Assembly: GCF_900177345.1 (NCBI RefSeq)
Contig: NZ_FWZT01000003.1
Coordinates: 124,001-188,000, forward strand
DNA length: 64,000 bases
Direction: 5' to 3'
Origin: Pseudobacteriovorax antillogorgiicola
Lineage (GTDB): Bacteria; Bdellovibrionota_B; Oligoflexia; Oligoflexales; Oligoflexaceae
How positions within the stretch are numbered: the first letter of the stretch is position 1; the number at the start of each line of letters is the position of its first letter. The position numbers and the translations under genes were made by a program. The notes beneath the pieces were generated by a model that made no database searches, had not been told where the DNA came from, and worked only from the letters and a program-made list of their open reading frames with translations. Shown one piece after another: positions 32,611 through 51,087 of the stretch.

Positions 32611-33366
32611 TTACTGATCGAGAAACCAACTTGGAAGTTTATTCATACCAGAGTTTTCGAACATGTTGGGACTCGTTGCACCGATGGAAACCTCCCACCT
32701 TTCAAGTGACTGACTAAATGCGCTCGCGTTTTGGAAGATACCATTCATGTCGATCACAGCAGCAACATCCCAATCATTCAAAGGCTGATTAAACTCCTCT
32801 GCTCCGGTGAACATCAGGCTCATATCTGTTACGTTTGAGGTGTTCCAAGTGCCAAGAGCTTGGTTAAAGCTCGTCGCGTAGAAAAACATGCTGTCCATAT
32901 CAACGACATGAGATACGTCCCAATTTTCTAGGGGCTGATTGAACGTCGATGCCCCTTGAAATGCACTGTTCATATCAACGACTTTCGAAACATCCCATTG
33001 AGAGACATTGATCCGATCAAAGTCTTGGTCCAATGGTTCGATTATGTCTTTGTAAAGGGACGAAAGATCGGAAAATTGAATTGAGATCTTCCTAAGAGGC
33101 CGTGGCGTATCGAGTACTTTCTTGAGTTCCTCTCGGCTGTATACCAAAGTATAAGTGGTTTCTTCGATAACAGCTTGATCGTTTTCTGAGCCCGTTTTCC
33201 CACCATTATTGGCTGCATCCTGGGCTGGTGCCTGACTATCTGGCTCCTGAACAGGAATATACTTTGGAGTTCGAACAGGTGGCTCAGATTTTCGCGCATT
33301 ATCGCCCTTGCTGCCTCCGCAAGAAGACATTAGTCCCATAATTACAACAATTTGTATGGATCGCAT
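32611..33366 (-). CDS. BspA/DUF285-repeat lipoprotein
   Basis: 251 residues. Signal peptide with lipobox (MSSC), a Pro/Ser-rich linker to about residue 75, then a BspA-type (DUF285) repeat region of about 120 residues. Several copies of the pattern 'FNQPLxxWDVSxVVDMxxMF' are seen: 'FQGASTFNQPLENWDV', 'FYATSFNQALGTWNTSNVTD', 'FTGAEEFNQPLNDWDV', 'FQNASAFSQSLERW'. Such repeats mediate binding on cell surfaces. ATG with GGAGG upstream. It converges on the four-Cys genes and is divergent from the gene-poor stretch at 33367-33902. Confidence 0.85.
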   Translation of the reverse strand: MRSIQIVVIMGLMSSCGGSKGDNARKSEPPVRTPKYIPVQEPDSQAPAQDAANNGGKTGSENDQAVIEETTYTLVYSREELKKVLDTPRPLRKISIQFSDLSSLYKDIIEPLDQDFDRINVSQWDVSKVVDMNSAFQGASTFNQPLENWDVSHVVDMDSMFFYATSFNQALGTWNTSNVTDMSLMFTGAEEFNQPLNDWDVAAVIDMNGIFQNASAFSQSLERWEVSIGATSPNMFENSGMNKLPSWFLDQ

Positions 33367-33902: not shown

Positions 33903-34964
33903 ATGCAATGCCCCAATGATAAATCGCCTCTCTCATATTTCGATCATATCTATAGCTGTTCAAGCTGCCACGGAAGCTTTCACAAGCGCGAAGGACTCGG
34001 TCAAAGTCTGTATCATAATTTAGGTGAGATGTTTCGTAAGAGATCTGTTGAGCAGCAAAAAACCTGCCCTCATTGCCAATCCAAAATGCTAGAGATCGAG
34101 CACCAAAGTGACGAGCTTCATCTCGATATCTGTCTATCTTGCCAAGGCATATGGTTTGACTATGGAGAGATTCCACACCTTGAACGCTACATCAAGCAAA
34201 GGTTAAAGCGCCCCCAGCGCTATCTCGATGTCAAAAAGAGATTACAAGAATCTGCGGTTCAGACTCTCTATAAACGTTATCTCAATACCCCAGGTGATCG
34301 GAGTGATCCAAGCAAACTAGAAATCCTTTTTCAAATCTTATCGAGCCTGCCACTGGAGCGAAATTTACGACCGATCAAAACCCCTGTCACCGTGTTTGCA
34401 TTGATAGCCATTAATATCATGATTTTCGCGCTAAGCTACAACACAGGCTTGGGTGAAGTGTTTCAATCCTGGGCTTTTATTCCTGGGCAATCACCTGCCT
34501 TCCCTAATATTCTTTACTCCATGTTTCTACACGGAGGATTTCTTCACCTTTTAGGCAATATGTACTTTTTATGGATCATGGGCGATAATGTGGAAGACTT
34601 AATGGGGCCAGCCAACTTCCTCTTGATATATTTTCTTGCTGGCTTTCTAGGTTTTGTCGCATCAGAGATCTCTGGTCCAGCAGGCGTTCCCCATGTGGGA
34701 GCAAGCGGAGCGGTGGCAGGTATCATGGCCGCGTACCTCCTGCTATTTCCCAAAGCAAAGTTCCTGCTCCGCTTTTTTCTTGTGATTGTAATTCCGATCT
34801 CATCACTATTTTATATTTTGTTCTGGTTCGGCATGAATGTGGTCAATTTTGTGGTTTTCAAGCAGGCTGGGGTTGCCTGGAGCGCTCATATCGTAGGATT
34901 TATTGTTGGGTTTATTGGCACTTACATCTTCCGCAAGCGCCACGGCATCATCGACCAGGAATAA
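33903..34964 (+). CDS. rhomboid-family intramembrane protease with N-terminal zinc ribbon
   Basis: 353 residues. The N-terminal part (about 1-95) carries zinc-ribbon cysteines (C3, C19/C22, C55/C58, C77/C80), with 'CLSCQGIWFDYGEI' typical of zf-TFIIB-like modules. After a linker, six or more membrane helices (about 160-345) form a rhomboid domain: 'HGGFLHLLGNMYFL', the GxSG motif 'GASGAVAGI' with Ser268, and His329 in 'SAHIVGF'. Serine protease within the membrane; substrate unknown. ATG with AGGATG upstream. It converges with the potassium genes, with only 18 bases between stops. Confidence 0.9.
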   Translation: MQCPNDKSPLSYFDHIYSCSSCHGSFHKREGLGQSLYHNLGEMFRKRSVEQQKTCPHCQSKMLEIEHQSDELHLDICLSCQGIWFDYGEIPHLERYIKQRLKRPQRYLDVKKRLQESAVQTLYKRYLNTPGDRSDPSKLEILFQILSSLPLERNLRPIKTPVTVFALIAINIMIFALSYNTGLGEVFQSWAFIPGQSPAFPNILYSMFLHGGFLHLLGNMYFLWIMGDNVEDLMGPANFLLIYFLAGFLGFVASEISGPAGVPHVGASGAVAGIMAAYLLLFPKAKFLLRFFLVIVIPISSLFYILFWFGMNVVNFVVFKQAGVAWSAHIVGFIVGFIGTYIFRKRHGIIDQE

Positions 34965-37632: not shown

Positions 37633-37760
37633 CTAGTGCCTAGTCAAGCTGAATTCTCGGCTAAGCGACAAGGAGCGAGCGAGGAGAGTACGTGCTGGGT
37701 ACGGTGACGAGCGAATGACGAAGTCAACAACGCCGAGGCTTCAACTTGGCTAGGCACTAG
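37633..37760. mobile_element. 128-bp palindromic-ended repeat, copy 1 (MITE-like)
   Basis: The ends are imperfect inverted repeats of about 29 bp: the left begins CTAGTGCCTAGTCAAGCTGA, the reverse complement of the right begins CTAGTGCCTAGCCAAGTTGA. The interior includes GAGCGAATGACGAAGTCAAC and GTGCTGGGTACGGTGACGAG, also found in the copy at 50971. It has no coding capacity. It ends 13 bases before the start of the fusion-protein gene, so it may affect that gene's expression. CTAG at both outer edges may be a target duplication. Confidence 0.75.
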
Positions 37761-37773
37761 GACGAGAATTTCC

Positions 37774-38889
37774 ATGATCCAGTATCGCCTCAACAGTAAA
37801 AATATAATTGAACGTATCGCAGGTCCCTGGCTTCAAGCCAATGGTAACCAGGGCAAGGTGAGGCCAGAGACTGTTTTGGGACGTAATATTTGGACTTTCT
37901 TTCGAGGCACGGAGCTGATCTCACTTTACTCGCAGCTTTTCGACTATGTTCGGCGAACTGAAAAAGTTTACGAAGTCCCGTTTCGCTGCGATAGCAAACA
38001 ATTCAAACGGCTGATGAAATTACGCATCGAACCTGTACGGCAGCAGGCCAAGGCTCTCGATATTAGCAGCACAGTGCTTCAAGAAATCAAAAGAGAGAGC
38101 CTCCCTATCACCGACGAGACAAGGATACCTCCGCAACGTTTTCTGGTATGCGCGATCTGCCAGCGAGCATCTCTTTCAGGCCATGTTTGGTTAGACCTTG
38201 AGTCCTTTGCGAAGGATTACCTGATATTTATAGAAAACGCGCCACCCCCTATGGGCGAACGCATTTGCCCCGACTGCTTAAGCGCCCAATTGCCTGCTGA
38301 CCATATTGTAACGGCACATGGAGATGTGGATCGATTCGATAGGGTACCCCTGATATTATTTTTACACGGTGAGGCTCAGCAGGAGCACCTATTCCGTCTT
38401 CAAGCCCCTCCTCGATTAGTAGCGACTGGTCAACTGCTCGATCAAGCACCTCCGTTCTACCTTTTAACTATGATCAAACGACAAAGAGGCCCGTGGGATG
38501 TTCGGCAAGTGATGACGATTCTAAACCGGATTAGCCTTTCTTATCCCATCGATATCAAGCGAATCTACCTTACTGGCCTTAGCTCCGGGGGACTCGCCAG
38601 CTGGAAGCTTATCAGGACTTATTCCGATGTTTTTGCAGGTGCTGTCATCGCAGCCAGTACTCCCCTTGGTGGCATCAATTTATCTCAGCTGAAAACACCC
38701 GTTTGGGTTACCCACGGAGGCCTGGACCTGGCTACGTCTTCCAGCCGAATCCACAGAGTCATGTCGGAGCTTATTGAAAGATCAGCAGAAGTAAAGTGCA
38801 CGGTTTTTCCTAATCAAGGGCACGATTGTTGGTCATCCACCTACCATCGAAACGAAATATGGCGCTGGCTATTCGAAAAATCACTATAG
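37774..38889 (+). CDS. PAS-like/zinc-cluster/alpha-beta hydrolase fusion
   Basis: 371 residues, cytosolic. Residues about 15-115 match a short PAS-like sensor module: 'VLGRNIWTFF' (34-43) and 'VPFRCDS' (68-74). Two CxxC pairs follow (CAIC 126-129, CPDC 165-168), as is usual after this module. The rest is an alpha/beta hydrolase of the predicted-peptidase/esterase type: 'LILFLHGE' (193-200), nucleophile Ser270 in GLSSGG, probable Asp318 (GGLDLA) and His350 (QGHDCW). I know the sensor module from signalling proteins but not fused to a hydrolase. The ribosome site is weak and the repeat element abuts the start. Confidence 0.75.
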   Translation: MIQYRLNSKNIIERIAGPWLQANGNQGKVRPETVLGRNIWTFFRGTELISLYSQLFDYVRRTEKVYEVPFRCDSKQFKRLMKLRIEPVRQQAKALDISSTVLQEIKRESLPITDETRIPPQRFLVCAICQRASLSGHVWLDLESFAKDYLIFIENAPPPMGERICPDCLSAQLPADHIVTAHGDVDRFDRVPLILFLHGEAQQEHLFRLQAPPRLVATGQLLDQAPPFYLLTMIKRQRGPWDVRQVMTILNRISLSYPIDIKRIYLTGLSSGGLASWKLIRTYSDVFAGAVIAASTPLGGINLSQLKTPVWVTHGGLDLATSSSRIHRVMSELIERSAEVKCTVFPNQGHDCWSSTYHRNEIWRWLFEKSL

Positions 38890-39019: not shown

Positions 39020-42000
39020 ATGCACCCCAAAGTCCTTGTAGGCATTGGCTGCTCAGCGGGAGGCCTCGAAGTTTTGCGCTTTTTAGTGTCGCGACTCACC
39101 CAGTCCAGCCACAATTCAGTGATTGTCGCCCAGCATATGTCGCCACAGTCCCGAAGCATGCTGACCGACATACTTGCTAGGGATACAGCACTTGATGTGG
39201 TGCGGGCTGAAGACGGCATCGAGTTAGAGGCTGGCAAGATCTATGTTTCGACTCCAGTTTATGACATGACTGTGGTAAACAAGCGACTGCGCCTGATCCT
39301 CCCCGAGCAGAGAATCGGCCCCAAGCCATCCATCGACGCATTGTTCTGCTCTATTGCCAAGGAGTGGAAGGAAAACTGCGTCAGTATTGTTTTAAGTGGC
39401 ACTGGTAGCGATGGCGCTTTTGGGACTAAAGCGATCAAAGCCGCTGGCGGGCTGACCGTTGCGCAAAAACCCCATACAGCCCGCTACGATGGAATGCCAC
39501 GGTCTGCCCTGGCTACGGGGGATGTGGATTTCACCTGGAGCCCCGATAAAATATCCGAGGAGTTGGATCGCCTCGAAGAATTAATGGTTCACCGAACCCA
39601 AGAAGAAACACCCCTTCAAGCTCGAGGGGAGAACCCAAGCGAATATGAAAAAGTTTATGAAATTCTGAGGCGCAAGACTAAGGTGGACTTTAGCGTCTAT
39701 AAGATGAATACTTTCGAAAGGCGATTGAATCGTCGCCTGCTTGCAACCTCGTCGAACCTTGAATCGTACGCCCGTTACCTAGCTTCTGATGATGAAGAGT
39801 GGCGCTACTTGTTTCACGATATTCTTATCTCGGTAACGAGTTTCTTTCGCGACTACCAGCAGTTTACGACGCTGACCGATCGATTTTCTGCCTATATCGA
39901 TCGACACAGGAGCAAGGAATCGATCCGAATCTGGAGCGCAGGCTGCTCCAGCGGAGAAGAACCCTACAGTCTGGCCATCCTTGCCCTTGAGGGCATGCGC
40001 AAGCTGAACCTTAGCAACCCGCCGACGTTGCAGATCTTTGCTACCGACATCCATGAGCACACCATGCAGGAGGCACGCCGCGGTAGCTTTTCCAAAGTGT
40101 CCCTCGAAGGCCTCAGCGATGAATTGATCGATCGATACTTTGAACAAAACGATACCAACTATCAAATTAAGAAAGATGTGCGGGACCTTGTCCTTTTCGC
40201 CCGCCATGATTTAACTATAGACCCACCCTTCATGCGTATGGACCTAATAACCTGTCGAAACGTATTTATTTACTTCGATCAGGACGTTCAGGAACGCATT
40301 CTTCGGATGTTTCACTACGCATTAGTACCAACGGGTCTTCTTTTCTTAGGCAAGAGTGAATCCATAAACGCGGGAAAAGACCTATTTCAGGTCTTGGACT
40401 CTCAGGCTAAGATCTTCGAGCGGGCCAACATCCCAGCTGATCCAAGTTTTGTTTTCGGCAGTTTTCCAACCCATGATGGGCAAATACCGAAGTATCAAGT
40501 TATGAGAAAAAAGAACGAGCAAGACAGCATCACACGAGACATCATTCAAAGCATGGCACCACACAGCCTTATGCTGGATGAAAAATTTCGAGTGCTCGCA
40601 ATCTTTGGCAAAGCCCGCGGCTTCCTGAACTTCCCTGAGGGAGAGTTCACCATGGAACTTGAACAGCTGTTGGAATTGCCGCTTCGCAATAAAGTTATGA
40701 CAGTTGTTCATCGCTGTTCCCGATCGATGGATATCACTGAAATCAGCGCTACGATCCCTGATCACGATAGCAGGGAAGAAAGGGTCGTTACAATCCGGGC
40801 CTTTCCACTAACGGTGCTCGATAGCAAACGGGTGGTCCTATCATTTGCCGAAAAAGTTCACGTGATCAGCTCTGAGAGCAGCGTCGAACCGATTGAAATC
40901 AAGGAATTGGAACAGGAACTTACAGCAACTCGCGAACACCTTCAGACTGTGATTGAAGAGCAAGAGACTGCCAATGAAGAGCTGCAAGCACTCAATGAAG
41001 AGCTGCAATCAGCCAACGAAGAGTTACAATCAACCAATGAAGAACTGGAGACATCCAATGAAGAGCTACAATCGACCAATGAAGAGTTGACTACTGTTAA
41101 TGAGGAACTCAATACCAAGTCTGTACAATTAGCAGACCTATTCCAGTACCTCACCACGATTCAAGATGCCATTCCCAACCCCATCGTCGTCATCGACCAT
41201 GAATTTCATCTCAAGAAATTCAACTATGCAGCGAAGGCAACCCTAAACCTCAATTCAACCATGGTCGGGTCCAATTTTCGGCTTATCGAAACGGGAATCA
41301 ATCTTAGCACTATATTTGAAACCATCGAGTTTAGCGTCAAGTATCAAAAAGCAGCGAGCATAAGCCTGAAAGACGTGGGGCGCAGTTTTGATGTGTTTAG
41401 CCACCCCCTGATGAATACAGCTGACGAGATCAGTGGCGTGGTTGTAACTTTTCTTGAGAACACTGAACTAACCACTGCACTCCAGCGGGCCCACCAAGTC
41501 GAGGGACAGCTTTACTCCATATTGAATAATATTCCTGCCCTCATCTCTGTAAAAAATACCATAGGTCACTACACTTACGTCAATCCGTTCTTCTGTCAGG
41601 CGATGCAACGTCACGCTAATGACATCATCAATAAATCCGACGAAGAGATCTTTGGTGCCTCAATCGGCACAAGGCGACGAAACCGTGACTTTGAAGTACT
41701 CAAAACAAAGAGCACCGTACTTGAAGATGATGTTTTAATCGCCGATGATGGCACTAGGAGAGTCTACCAGACAGCCTCACTTCCCCTCGAAATCTCGGGA
41801 GAGCAACTGGTTTCTATTTGCTCGGTTGCCTTCGATATCACCCATCGAGATTTCACTGAGCGCCAGATCAGAAATTTCCAGCGCTTTGCTCGCTATTCGA
41901 ACGATCTCTTCTTAGCGTTCGACTGCCAAGACCAGCACTCCCAGCTCGTTTTTGGCGATGAGCTGGTGGCCCAGTTATTTGGCTACGAACAAGAAACCTT

Positions 42001-42952
42001 TCGCAATGCTTCGATCTTTACAGTTCTCAGCTCTATTGCCAATCTCCAAAGTCAGCAGGACTTAGAACAACTGGCTCGGGATCTAAGCTCTCACGACACC
42101 TATGAGTTCACTTTTGAGTTTCAAACCAAGAAGGACCAAATTCGCTTCTTCAAGGCTAAGTCCGCCAAAGTCAACGAGAGCGATCACACCCAACTCCTAA
42201 TCACAATTGTCGACATTACAGAGGAACGGGAAAATAGCCGCTTAGTTCAGCAGCAGCAAGAAGACCTTCTCAGGGCATCGCGCCTAGCCTCTCTGGGTGA
42301 AATGGCTGCAGGGATCGCTCACGAATTAAAGACTCCGCTCAATACTATCCAGGGCTATGTAGATCTCGTTCATGAGTACTCTCGCCATCGAGATGTTGAC
42401 GAAACCATCAGTGATGCCATGAGCAATATTGAAGATACTGTTTCTAGGATTTCTGAAATCATCGTTGGCCTCAAGTCAATTTCAAGGAATCGAGAGGGAG
42501 AAAAAAGCAAGACTTGTAACCTTAAGTCTATCGTTGCCGAAGTTGCGAAAATATGTGAGTACCACCTTAAAAACAAAGGGGTCGAGTTTCGGAATCTGAT
42601 AGAGGCTGACTTGAAGGTGACCTGCCAACCGACTCAAATAAGCCAGGTCTTGATCAACCTGATTAACAACTCGGTGGATGCGATTTCCCTTTTGCAAGAA
42701 CGATGGGTCGAAATCGGACTGAAGCAGCAAGATTCTACAATTTTATTACAGGTCACCGATAGTGGAACCGGAATACCTGATTCCATCGCCAGTCAGATCT
42801 TGACTCCATTTTTTACCACTAAAAAAGATGGAACTGGCTTGGGTCTAAGTCTTTCGCGGAATATCCTGAAAGCCCATCAAGGGGACCTCTATGTCGATAA
42901 GACTTGTAGTAACACCCGATTCGTGGTCTCCTTGCCCATCCATACAGAATAG
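39020..42952 (+). CDS. CheB-CheR-PAS sensor histidine kinase
   Basis: 1310 residues. A CheB methylesterase domain (about 1-190; 'GIGCSAGGLEVLRFL', 'VLSGTGSDGAFGTKAI') is followed by a CheR methyltransferase (about 205-470; 'IWSAGCSSGEEPYSLA', 'LITCRNVFIYFD'). A long NEELQ-heptad coiled coil (about 635-700) leads to three PAS-type domains (about 710-1085). The kinase has H-box 'AAGIAHELKTPLNTIQGY' (His1101) and intact N, G1 and G2 motifs. Such fusions link receptor-methylation chemistry with phosphorelay. The single-domain receiver encoded next is its likely partner. Confidence 0.92.
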   Translation: MHPKVLVGIGCSAGGLEVLRFLVSRLTQSSHNSVIVAQHMSPQSRSMLTDILARDTALDVVRAEDGIELEAGKIYVSTPVYDMTVVNKRLRLILPEQRIGPKPSIDALFCSIAKEWKENCVSIVLSGTGSDGAFGTKAIKAAGGLTVAQKPHTARYDGMPRSALATGDVDFTWSPDKISEELDRLEELMVHRTQEETPLQARGENPSEYEKVYEILRRKTKVDFSVYKMNTFERRLNRRLLATSSNLESYARYLASDDEEWRYLFHDILISVTSFFRDYQQFTTLTDRFSAYIDRHRSKESIRIWSAGCSSGEEPYSLAILALEGMRKLNLSNPPTLQIFATDIHEHTMQEARRGSFSKVSLEGLSDELIDRYFEQNDTNYQIKKDVRDLVLFARHDLTIDPPFMRMDLITCRNVFIYFDQDVQERILRMFHYALVPTGLLFLGKSESINAGKDLFQVLDSQAKIFERANIPADPSFVFGSFPTHDGQIPKYQVMRKKNEQDSITRDIIQSMAPHSLMLDEKFRVLAIFGKARGFLNFPEGEFTMELEQLLELPLRNKVMTVVHRCSRSMDITEISATIPDHDSREERVVTIRAFPLTVLDSKRVVLSFAEKVHVISSESSVEPIEIKELEQELTATREHLQTVIEEQETANEELQALNEELQSANEELQSTNEELETSNEELQSTNEELTTVNEELNTKSVQLADLFQYLTTIQDAIPNPIVVIDHEFHLKKFNYAAKATLNLNSTMVGSNFRLIETGINLSTIFETIEFSVKYQKAASISLKDVGRSFDVFSHPLMNTADEISGVVVTFLENTELTTALQRAHQVEGQLYSILNNIPALISVKNTIGHYTYVNPFFCQAMQRHANDIINKSDEEIFGASIGTRRRNRDFEVLKTKSTVLEDDVLIADDGTRRVYQTASLPLEISGEQLVSICSVAFDITHRDFTERQIRNFQRFARYSNDLFLAFDCQDQHSQLVFGDELVAQLFGYEQETFRNASIFTVLSSIANLQSQQDLEQLARDLSSHDTYEFTFEFQTKKDQIRFFKAKSAKVNESDHTQLLITIVDITEERENSRLVQQQQEDLLRASRLASLGEMAAGIAHELKTPLNTIQGYVDLVHEYSRHRDVDETISDAMSNIEDTVSRISEIIVGLKSISRNREGEKSKTCNLKSIVAEVAKICEYHLKNKGVEFRNLIEADLKVTCQPTQISQVLINLINNSVDAISLLQERWVEIGLKQQDSTILLQVTDSGTGIPDSIASQILTPFFTTKKDGTGLGLSLSRNILKAHQGDLYVDKTCSNTRFVVSLPIHTE
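40973..41113 (+). repeat. intragenic heptad repeat, NEELQ
   Basis: About seven tandem copies of a 21-bp unit encoding NEELQ(S/A)(T/A) with synonymous variation (AATGAAGAGCTACAATC and similar). It makes the signalling coiled coil in CheB-CheR-kinase fusions and is typical of the family. Confidence 0.85.
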
Positions 42953-43058
42953 ATAGAATTGTAGTTTCCACACCCTCATGATATGAAGGTTTTATTACTA
43001 AATTAATTGAATCAAACAGCCTCTAGTGCCATGGCAGCCTTATCATTATGAGGAAAGT

Positions 43059-43436
43059 ATGAGTTCACTCAAGTTACTAGTGGTGGAAGACTCACACGAA
43101 TTGGTGCGCATTTGGCGAACTTTGTTTCGAGTTTCCACAGACTTCAAAGTCAAATTCTGCTTATCTGGTTCATGCGCGAAAGAAACCATCTCTGCTGGCT
43201 ACAAACCGGATGTGGTGCTTACTGATTATTACCTTGGCGACACCAACGGCATTGCCCTGATGGAAGAGATTCGCGAGGCTCGACCCAGCTCTAAGTTTAT
43301 TGTGATTACAGGCAACACAGAGGACGAGAGGATGCTCAAGATGCATCGCCAGGGGCTTTTCGCTCTTCTGCACAAACCGGTAAAATTTGATCTAATCAAA
43401 CAAAATATCGAAGCGGTAGCTCGGCAGGGAACATAA
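43059..43436 (+). CDS. single-domain response regulator
   Basis: 125 residues from ATG at 43059 (GAGGAAAGT ahead), preferred to an upstream ATG at 43026 with no site. A complete receiver: acidic Glu-Asp (VVEDS), phospho-acceptor Asp in 'VVLTDYYLG', Thr in 'VITGN', and Lys in 'LHKPVK'. It has no output domain, so it acts as a phosphate carrier or a protein-interaction switch like CheY. Its place just after the giant CheB-CheR-kinase gene makes it the likely phospho-acceptor (inference). Confidence 0.9.
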   Translation: MSSLKLLVVEDSHELVRIWRTLFRVSTDFKVKFCLSGSCAKETISAGYKPDVVLTDYYLGDTNGIALMEEIREARPSSKFIVITGNTEDERMLKMHRQGLFALLHKPVKFDLIKQNIEAVARQGT

Positions 43437-45041: not shown

Positions 45042-45542
45042 GCTCCTATCCTCCTTAAGGAATCTTTATTATCCTTCAAAGTTCTCGACGTCTTTGCCAA
45101 ATATTTTAGGGAATCAGAAAAAATATAAATAAAGGAAAATTTAGGCTATGGATTCGATCACCTAGATGAACTAGCTAGGAATCCTGACTCGCATTAACTC
45201 AAGAATAAATCTCGTTACCAGCTCTGGAGTTAGGTTTTTCCTGAAGCCTCATTACGAAATGGTATAACTAATAAGAATCTTTCTTAGTACTATTAAGGCA
45301 CACCTATAGAAACGGCTTACTAACAAAGACCCATTCATCACTATCAAACGATCGCTTAATGAATTCAATAGATCTATACCGTCTGGTAAAAAGGTCGTTT
45401 CTTTGAAATCAACCCTGAGAAAAAGAGAAATTCCCACCTTAGGTATCTTAATACAAGTTTAACGAAGTTCGGTTGATCTCTACCACGGTTTCCATTACAA
45501 AATCCAAACTAGGGAAAAATTTTTTACTTGGGAGATTCAGTC
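45042..45542. other. 501-bp gap between divergent lipoprotein genes
   Basis: AT-rich and without a gene that I would support. It contains the promoter-like site at 45473-45501. The remainder shows no hairpin or RNA of note. Confidence 0.5.
45473..45501 (+). promoter_or_regulatory. possible sigma70-type promoter
   Basis: TTGATC, 17 bases, TACAAA. It stands 42 bases ahead of the transglutaminase-elicitor start at 45543. Confidence 0.35.
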
Positions 45543-47210
45543 ATGAAGCTATGGACACCAGCCATCGCCCTCATCCTTGCAGGATGTGGGGCTTCTCAAA
45601 ATCCTTCGTCTTTAGACGAGGCTTGGGATACGCGAAACGATCCGATCATTATGGACACCAGTCGCAATTATGAGAAAAATTTCGCTAACTTACCCCGCTC
45701 TGCAAATCTTAGCAAACAGCCTTGGAGTGGTGACTACTGGGCTAGTTATCGCGGGGGTATCAGCTATCGTTGGAATGCATCGGTAGCAGAAATTGATCGT
45801 TATCGCTACGATCCGAAACCCTATTACAACTTATCGCAAAATCAACTGCGGCAGCTTTCTCCTGCAGAGAAATACGATATTCTTCGAGGGCGGCGAGACT
45901 ACCCTCTGACGCAAAGCGAGCGCCGTCGGACCCGAGTTTTACAATCCATTCCTGGGCGACCGGAGTACATCCCAGGCTATAAAATCCCAACTTGGGAAGG
46001 ACTATGCCATGCTTGGGCACCTGCAACTTATAGCTTCGAAGAGCCTCAACCAGTCACGATGAGAAGCCCCGAAGGTATCGAAGTGCCTTTTGGGTCATCA
46101 GATATCAAGGCGTTGATCACCTACTTCATGCATCAAAAACAATCTTCGGCTCGCACCCAGTTCTTGGGTCGGCGGTGCAATGAGTCATTTGAAAACCTCA
46201 GCGGCGAAGCGCTGAAAAAAGCCAAAGAAAGCTCAGCCTGCCGTGATGTAAATGCAGGCGCTTTCCATGTGGTTATCAGCAATCAGATCGGAATAGCAGA
46301 TGAAAGCTTTGTTGTGGATGTGACCCGTGACGCGGAAGTATGGAATCAGGCGATCGAAGGCTACTCTGTCCAAGTTGTAGAACGTCGGCCTGTGGAGCAA
46401 GGCTATCGAAATATGGCCCAAGGTACTGAAACTATCGTCCGCGTTAAAACTACCATGGCCTATACTGTAGAAGTTCCGTCTCGCTGGGCTGGGGATACAA
46501 TCAAAGGGCCAGGAACCTTTCGTCCCGCTACCTACCGGGTAACCTACGACTACTGGCTAGAGCTCGATGCTTGGGGAGACATTCTTGGCGGTAAGTGGAA
46601 CACTGAAACACGGCCAGACTTCCTATGGAAGCAAACGATTCCCGACTTCGGCGCGGAATGGAGTGAACTAAGAAAGCTCTATCAAGCATCTATCAATGGA
46701 GGAGTCACACCTCCCGAGCCAGGACCACAACCTGAGCCTCCCACGGATGATATGAAACCAGGGTTTCAAATCAAATTCACCCACAATAAATGTGTCGATA
46801 TCATCGGTGGAGTAGCACGTTCGGGTCAAGCTGTGGTGCAACGAACCTGTGATGGCCGCGCAACTCAGCGATGGAATTTCGTAGCACGAGGCAATGGCTG
46901 GAGCCTCATCCAAAGTGCTGCCAATCCAGAACTTTGTTTAGACCTGGAATCTTCGTCAATGCAACCAGGGTCTCGCATCATCGCTTACCGATGCACAGGA
47001 ACCAGTAATCAACTTTGGCAGATCACGCGATTTACTTTCCCTGGAACAGCTAATCCTGAGTTTACAGCTATTAAAGTTGGGCATGGAAGCAACATGTGTA
47101 TGGCTCCACACCCCAGTCAGTACTACCTAGACCGGGCTCAGTTGGGCCAGTATCAATGTACCGGCAACAGCTTTGATCGCATCGTAACGCCATTTCCCTA
47201 CTTAAACTAA
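45543..47210 (+). CDS. transglutaminase-elicitor-like lipoprotein with ricin-B lectin domain
   Basis: 555 residues from ATG at 45543 (GGGAG ahead). Signal peptide with lipobox (LAGC). Residues about 120-390 match the transglutaminase elicitor family known from oomycetes and some bacteria: 'GLCHAWAPATYSFEEP', 'DIKALITYFM', 'CRDVNAGAFHVVISNQIG' and 'DAEVWNQAIEGY'. The Cys-His-Asp set is consistent with protein crosslinking activity. A Pro-rich linker leads to a C-terminal ricin-B beta-trefoil (about 415-550) with 'QRWNF' and 'QLWQI' QxW motifs, for sugar binding. An extracellular or surface enzyme acting on glycosylated targets is likely. Confidence 0.85.
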   Translation: MKLWTPAIALILAGCGASQNPSSLDEAWDTRNDPIIMDTSRNYEKNFANLPRSANLSKQPWSGDYWASYRGGISYRWNASVAEIDRYRYDPKPYYNLSQNQLRQLSPAEKYDILRGRRDYPLTQSERRRTRVLQSIPGRPEYIPGYKIPTWEGLCHAWAPATYSFEEPQPVTMRSPEGIEVPFGSSDIKALITYFMHQKQSSARTQFLGRRCNESFENLSGEALKKAKESSACRDVNAGAFHVVISNQIGIADESFVVDVTRDAEVWNQAIEGYSVQVVERRPVEQGYRNMAQGTETIVRVKTTMAYTVEVPSRWAGDTIKGPGTFRPATYRVTYDYWLELDAWGDILGGKWNTETRPDFLWKQTIPDFGAEWSELRKLYQASINGGVTPPEPGPQPEPPTDDMKPGFQIKFTHNKCVDIIGGVARSGQAVVQRTCDGRATQRWNFVARGNGWSLIQSAANPELCLDLESSSMQPGSRIIAYRCTGTSNQLWQITRFTFPGTANPEFTAIKVGHGSNMCMAPHPSQYYLDRAQLGQYQCTGNSFDRIVTPFPYLN

Positions 47211-50970: not shown

Positions 50971-51087
50971 CTAGCCTAGGCAAGTTGAATTCTCGGCTAG
51001 GCGACAAGGAGACAGTAGGTGCTGGGTATGGTGACAAGCGAGTGACAAAGTCAACAACACCGAGACTTCAAATCGACTAGGCCCTAG
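50971..51087. mobile_element. palindromic-ended repeat, copy 2 (117 bp)
   Basis: Matches copy 1 (37633-37760) over its whole length with an internal deletion of about 8 bases and scattered changes: TGAATTCTCGGCTAGGCGAC, GTGCTGGGTATGGTGACAAG and GTGACAAAGTCAACAACACC correspond. The inverted ends are kept. It lies between the AbgT stop and the SIMPL gene stop, and may help end transcription. Confidence 0.75.

Follow-up and report, generated by a model that had tools for sequence, protein, structure and literature searches.

The window analysed here, a 64,000-nucleotide stretch of the 7.28 Mb Pseudobacteriovorax antillogorgiicola genome, possesses a gene (37774..38889, + strand) encoding, in a single open frame of 371 aa, a predicted PAS-fold domain, a module of four cysteines (CxxC...CxxC; Cys4) and a complete esterase domain, arranged in this order within one polypeptide and joined by a short linker. 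Three copies of this fusion were found, all of them adjacent to, or one gene away from, a CheB-CheR-PAS-histidine kinase and a receiver domain. The fusion probably belongs to a signalling module, and it can tentatively be read as a sensor-gated cytoplasmic esterase that would serve as the output of this CheB-CheR-PAS-histidine-kinase/receiver module.

The fusion gene, its homologues and its predicted domains

The interval 37774-38889 translates without a stop over 371 codons, and its reverse strand is not open, with many stops. Two full-length homologues were found: a paralogue of 387 aa in the same genome (P0002; L002/L037), 26% identical over 376 columns, and an orthologue of 380 aa (P0003/L009) in Pseudobacteriovorax sp. 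DT_89, a MAG and the nearest named relative, 40% identical over 379 columns. As the architecture is kept in both, chance read-through is excluded, and a frameshift or gene-boundary artefact was rejected on the same grounds. The PAS part, the Cys4 part and the hydrolase were 37%, 24% and 51% identical to the orthologue, and 33%, 21% and 25% identical to the paralogue, respectively. Among 58 genomes of the phylum, many of which are incomplete MAGs, the N-terminal module was present in two, its own genome and DT_89, with no further copies in the others, and no relatives of the N-terminus were found in plasmids, phages or viral contigs. No signal peptide is apparent in the fusion protein, which is therefore predicted to be cytoplasmic.

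The preliminary description had recognised a PAS-like part, a double CxxC and a hydrolase in this gene, with cysteines at residues 126, 129, 165 and 168 and a catalytic triad at Ser270, Asp318 and His350. This layout is kept end to end in the two homologues, and the seven residues lie exactly where they had been placed, all being invariant across the three-way alignment.

The N-terminus (residues ~1-106; 37774..38091, + strand) is assigned with modest confidence to the PAS fold, a five-stranded antiparallel sheet with intervening helices. The AlphaFold model, built from three sequences (mean pLDDT 69.8), displayed two strands, helices, a long helix (residues 46-62) and three strands, which is the PAS topology; block confidences were 80-92 over most of residues 31-100 (65 for block 71-80), with a low-confidence loop at residues 20-28. 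Nearly all of the best 50 Foldseek matches in the PDB were PAS-type proteins (E from 1.9e-3, probability 1.00). The best was the quorum-sensing PAS domain of RpfR (E 1.9e-3, probability 1.00, TM 0.67 by target), with PYP and HIF2/ARNT among the other PAS structures in the matches listed. Nothing about the ligand of the predicted domain follows from the fold match.

At the sequence level, the N-terminus matched no Pfam PAS family at E values up to 10, and no other family of Pfam or NCBIfam recognised it. Searches against PHROGs and PADLOC returned nothing credible, a likeness to RecD_N (E 0.07-0.11) was taken as chance, and comparison with the PAS domain of the neighbouring kinase gave no sequence-level link (hhalign 0.3%). 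Uncurated proteobacterial PAS-like proteins with a CxxC pair, which we took to be a candidate family for the N-terminus, were not confirmed as such: two approximate consensus-like queries retrieved nothing beyond short phage proteins resembling zinc fingers and a Sphingobium match at chance level. The preliminary description had likened this region, together with the CxxC pairs, to a sensor module that signalling proteins are known to contain; a PAS fold is indeed predicted, but homology is not demonstrable, as no profile matched. The profile search, set beforehand as one refuting test, found no sensor family, and the predicted fold is nevertheless that of a PAS domain.

The Cys4 module (residues 126-168; 38149..38277, + strand) was only 21-24% identical to its homologues, yet all four cysteines were invariant. 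In profile comparison it showed a weak resemblance (E 0.15) to the part of PerR, a regulator of the Fur type, that holds the paired CxxC motifs, and the module is probably a zinc site, judging from its sequence.

The remainder of the chain (residues ~176-371; 38299..38886, + strand) is an ordinary alpha/beta-hydrolase domain of the EstA/LC-Est1C/4q82 group of esterases, with an intact triad and predicted esterase activity. It matched the Pfam families Peptidase_S9 (2.6e-8) and DLH (6.1e-5), both above cut-off, and its PDB sequence matches included 4q82 (1.4e-13), 3doh and 3wyd, the last of which was also a match of the predicted fold (TM 0.81 by target length). The triad, whose Ser lies in GxSxG, and the FLHG oxyanion (HG) motif were invariant in the three-way alignment. 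PHB depolymerase families (NF050058 and TIGR01840) were rejected with scores far under their cut-offs (48.5/150 and 44.3/107.85 bits, respectively). Stand-alone plasmid esterases of Croceibacterium and Sinorhizobium (251 and 243 aa) align with the hydrolase over their whole catalytic length, which sets the start of a complete domain at about residue 176, slightly earlier than the residue 190 given in the preliminary description; the complete domain with its triad stood. In place of the PAS-Cys4 part, these plasmid esterases start with a signal-peptide-like stretch, as judged by eye, and a normally exported enzyme therefore appears to have been placed behind a cytoplasmic sensor.

The PAS-Cys4 part might instead be a structural, dimerising or targeting domain in front of a constitutive esterase. 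The same esterase group does possess other N-terminal domains (e.g. 3doh/3doi, whose esterase match begins at position 171 out of 380). Apart from its cysteines the Cys4 region shows little conservation, and the N-terminus yielded no recognisable ligand-binding motif typical of a known PAS class. Against this stand the signalling-gene context and the conservation of the PAS part, which exceeds that of the hydrolase in the paralogue (33% vs 25%) and includes an invariant PFRCDS motif (P69-F-R-C-D-S74). A structural N-terminus with a constitutive enzyme is considered very unlikely, and the sensor half is taken as the part that would gate esterase activity.

Gene neighbourhood of the three copies

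The next gene downstream of the fusion encodes a CheB-CheR-PAS-HisKA-HATPase fusion kinase of 1310 aa (39020..42952, + strand; Pfam), and is followed by a single-domain response regulator (43026..43436, + strand; Pfam Response_reg, 1.3e-17). In DT_89, orthologues of the kinase (47% identical) and of the receiver (48% identical, single-domain there too) lie beside the fusion gene in a different orientation, with the fusion gene on the + strand and the receiver and kinase on the - strand. The fusion, the kinase and the receiver are the only genes in common between the two loci (6 genes compared in the window and 9 in DT_89). At the paralogue locus, a CheB-CheR-PAS-HATPase protein (1059 aa), a HisKA-HATPase-receiver hybrid and the fusion are encoded in this order on one strand, with a gap of about 30 bases between the hybrid and the fusion.

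Adjacency to a kinase alone is weak evidence, since the genome of P. antillogorgiicola contains at least 150 HATPase matches. CheB matches numbered seven in this genome, and only two of them were in CheB-CheR-HATPase fusions, both with a PAS-esterase partner. Those on C11 and C15 belonged to CheR...CheB proteins that had no kinase match. Those on C9, C21 and the truncated one at C3:188824 (open frames of 373, 188 and 102 aa, respectively) were judged by length only. The truncated CheB methylesterase match (G000:C3:188824-189027) lies just past the right end of the window, contains an internal TGA and is probably a gene remnant. The kinase type also exists without the partner: DT_89 possesses further CheB-containing fusion kinases (e.g. 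L038:319-3591), and CheB-CheR-PAS kinases without a PAS-esterase partner were found in genus g3 of the family. Moreover, the two modules of P. antillogorgiicola may derive from one old duplication, in which case their linkages are not independent.

Since no more than one gene separates any copy from a kinase of this type or from a receiver domain, membership of a two-component system is the more likely situation, and we infer that the fusion protein works with both. The preliminary description had proposed a stand-alone one-component enzyme switch, for which the kinase neighbourhood would be incidental. An N-terminal sensor followed by a short linker and a C-terminal enzyme is the usual one-component order, and a cytoplasmic chain with no apparent signal peptide would suit such a switch; on the other side, the same type of kinase occurs, along with a receiver, within one gene in three of three loci, and the linkage survives an orientation-changing rearrangement that left no other gene common to the window and DT_89 loci. 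Conservation and the predicted fold support the soluble sensor-to-hydrolase chain, whereas its purely one-component nature is weakened by the kinase and receiver neighbours and is regarded as distinctly unlikely. A sensor-gated esterase within a two-component module, whether as its output or as an input of the RsbQ kind, is the likelier alternative.

Candidate roles and known systems

In the favoured reading, that of a sensor-gated esterase as output, the PAS and Cys4 parts would read a ligand or the redox or metal state, and the phosphorylated receiver might dock on the fusion protein. Such sensing, possibly together with receiver docking, would alter esterase activity, and hydrolysing a metabolite, either an ester or an amide, would be the enzymatic output of the module. 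The esterase is a candidate output because no obvious DNA-binding or cyclase output was found at the three loci; this evidence is weak, however, as single-domain receivers are able to act on other partners. The full arrangement, a natural enzyme-output two-component module in which a cytoplasmic esterase is under the joint control of a CheB-CheR-PAS kinase, a single-domain receiver and a sensor made of PAS and Cys4, is considered rather unlikely. If true, it would mean that signalling ends in small-molecule hydrolysis, and not in transcription, second-messenger synthesis or motility.

The mechanics of a sensor-gated esterase appear feasible, as an artificial lipase fusion with an N-terminal PAS domain is controllable by ligand (PMC5316958). 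This engineered protein, CitAP-BsLA, whose activity responds to the PAS ligand, resembles the fusion in being soluble and in carrying its PAS domain ahead of an alpha/beta hydrolase. It differs in being man-made, with an unrelated PAS class and lipase and a helical linker, and without a Cys4 module.

Hydrolases can also serve as signal inputs to PAS domains, as in RsbQ/RsbP: in a bipartite sensing module that is already known, an RsbQ-type alpha/beta hydrolase is paired with a neighbouring PAS protein, and the output may be a phosphatase, a histidine kinase or a cyclase (PMC3183031). By analogy, the fusion could be an accessory protein that feeds signals into the kinase, uniting in one chain what RsbQ and the PAS domain of RsbP do as a pair; the hydrolase would act as a receptor or ligand processor, and the result would pass through its own PAS domain or that of the kinase to set kinase activity. 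The present loci, like that known module (PMC3183031), bring a hydrolase together with PAS domains and a histidine kinase. The two differ in the order and fusion of their parts: RsbQ and RsbP are two proteins, with the PAS domain fused to the output, whereas PAS, Cys4 and hydrolase form one chain here and the kinase is separate, with PAS domains of its own in each partner kinase. Furthermore, the hydrolase matched EstA/LC-Est1C/4q82 esterases both by sequence and by fold, with no RsbQ structure among the matches listed. Direct membership of the RsbQ/RsbP system was rejected on account of the EstA-type hydrolase and of a PAS domain fused to the hydrolase, and an RsbQ-like input role is possible, if somewhat unlikely.

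The closest relatives of the enzyme half are the EstA/LC-Est1C-type esterases (4q82, 3wyd, 3doh; relatives of NCBIfam e_dPHAscl_type1 and esterase_phb). These have in common with the fusion the fold, the triad, a PPR/PPK motif after the HG loop and a domain of ~195 residues. Those found either stand alone, beginning with a stretch that resembles a signal peptide, or have other domains at the N-terminus, whereas the fusion carries a PAS-Cys4 part in a cytoplasmic chain. PAS sensors working with hydrolases in trans (RsbQ/RsbP) and artificial PAS-gated lipases are already known. No description of a natural equivalent was found in the open-access literature, which omits most subscription journals, so that the claim to novelty is moderate; this agrees with the earlier statement that no described case was known to its author. 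A natural one-chain PAS-Cys4-esterase, which has stayed next to one kinase type through deep divergence, offers a compact system for directly testing the control of a hydrolase by a sensor, or a hydrolase as signal input.

Repeat element and other features of the window

Directly upstream of the fusion gene, a palindromic interspersed repeat of ~130 bp (37633..37760; fold z -4.8), with 29-nt arms that are 86% complementary, stops 13 bp short of the start codon. Its family had 44 matches in the genome, some of them partial, including ~40 copies at 76-92% identity, and resembles MITE/REP-like families. A further copy is located at 50974-51087 of the window.

Other genes in the window included one encoding a predicted bacterial protein with a transglutaminase-elicitor domain (PF16683, 2e-44) and a ricin-type lectin domain (45528-47210), one for a rhomboid protease with an N-terminal zinc-ribbon domain (33903-34964; PF13453 and PF01694), and one for a predicted lipoprotein with DUF285 repeats (32611-33366; 1.3e-68).
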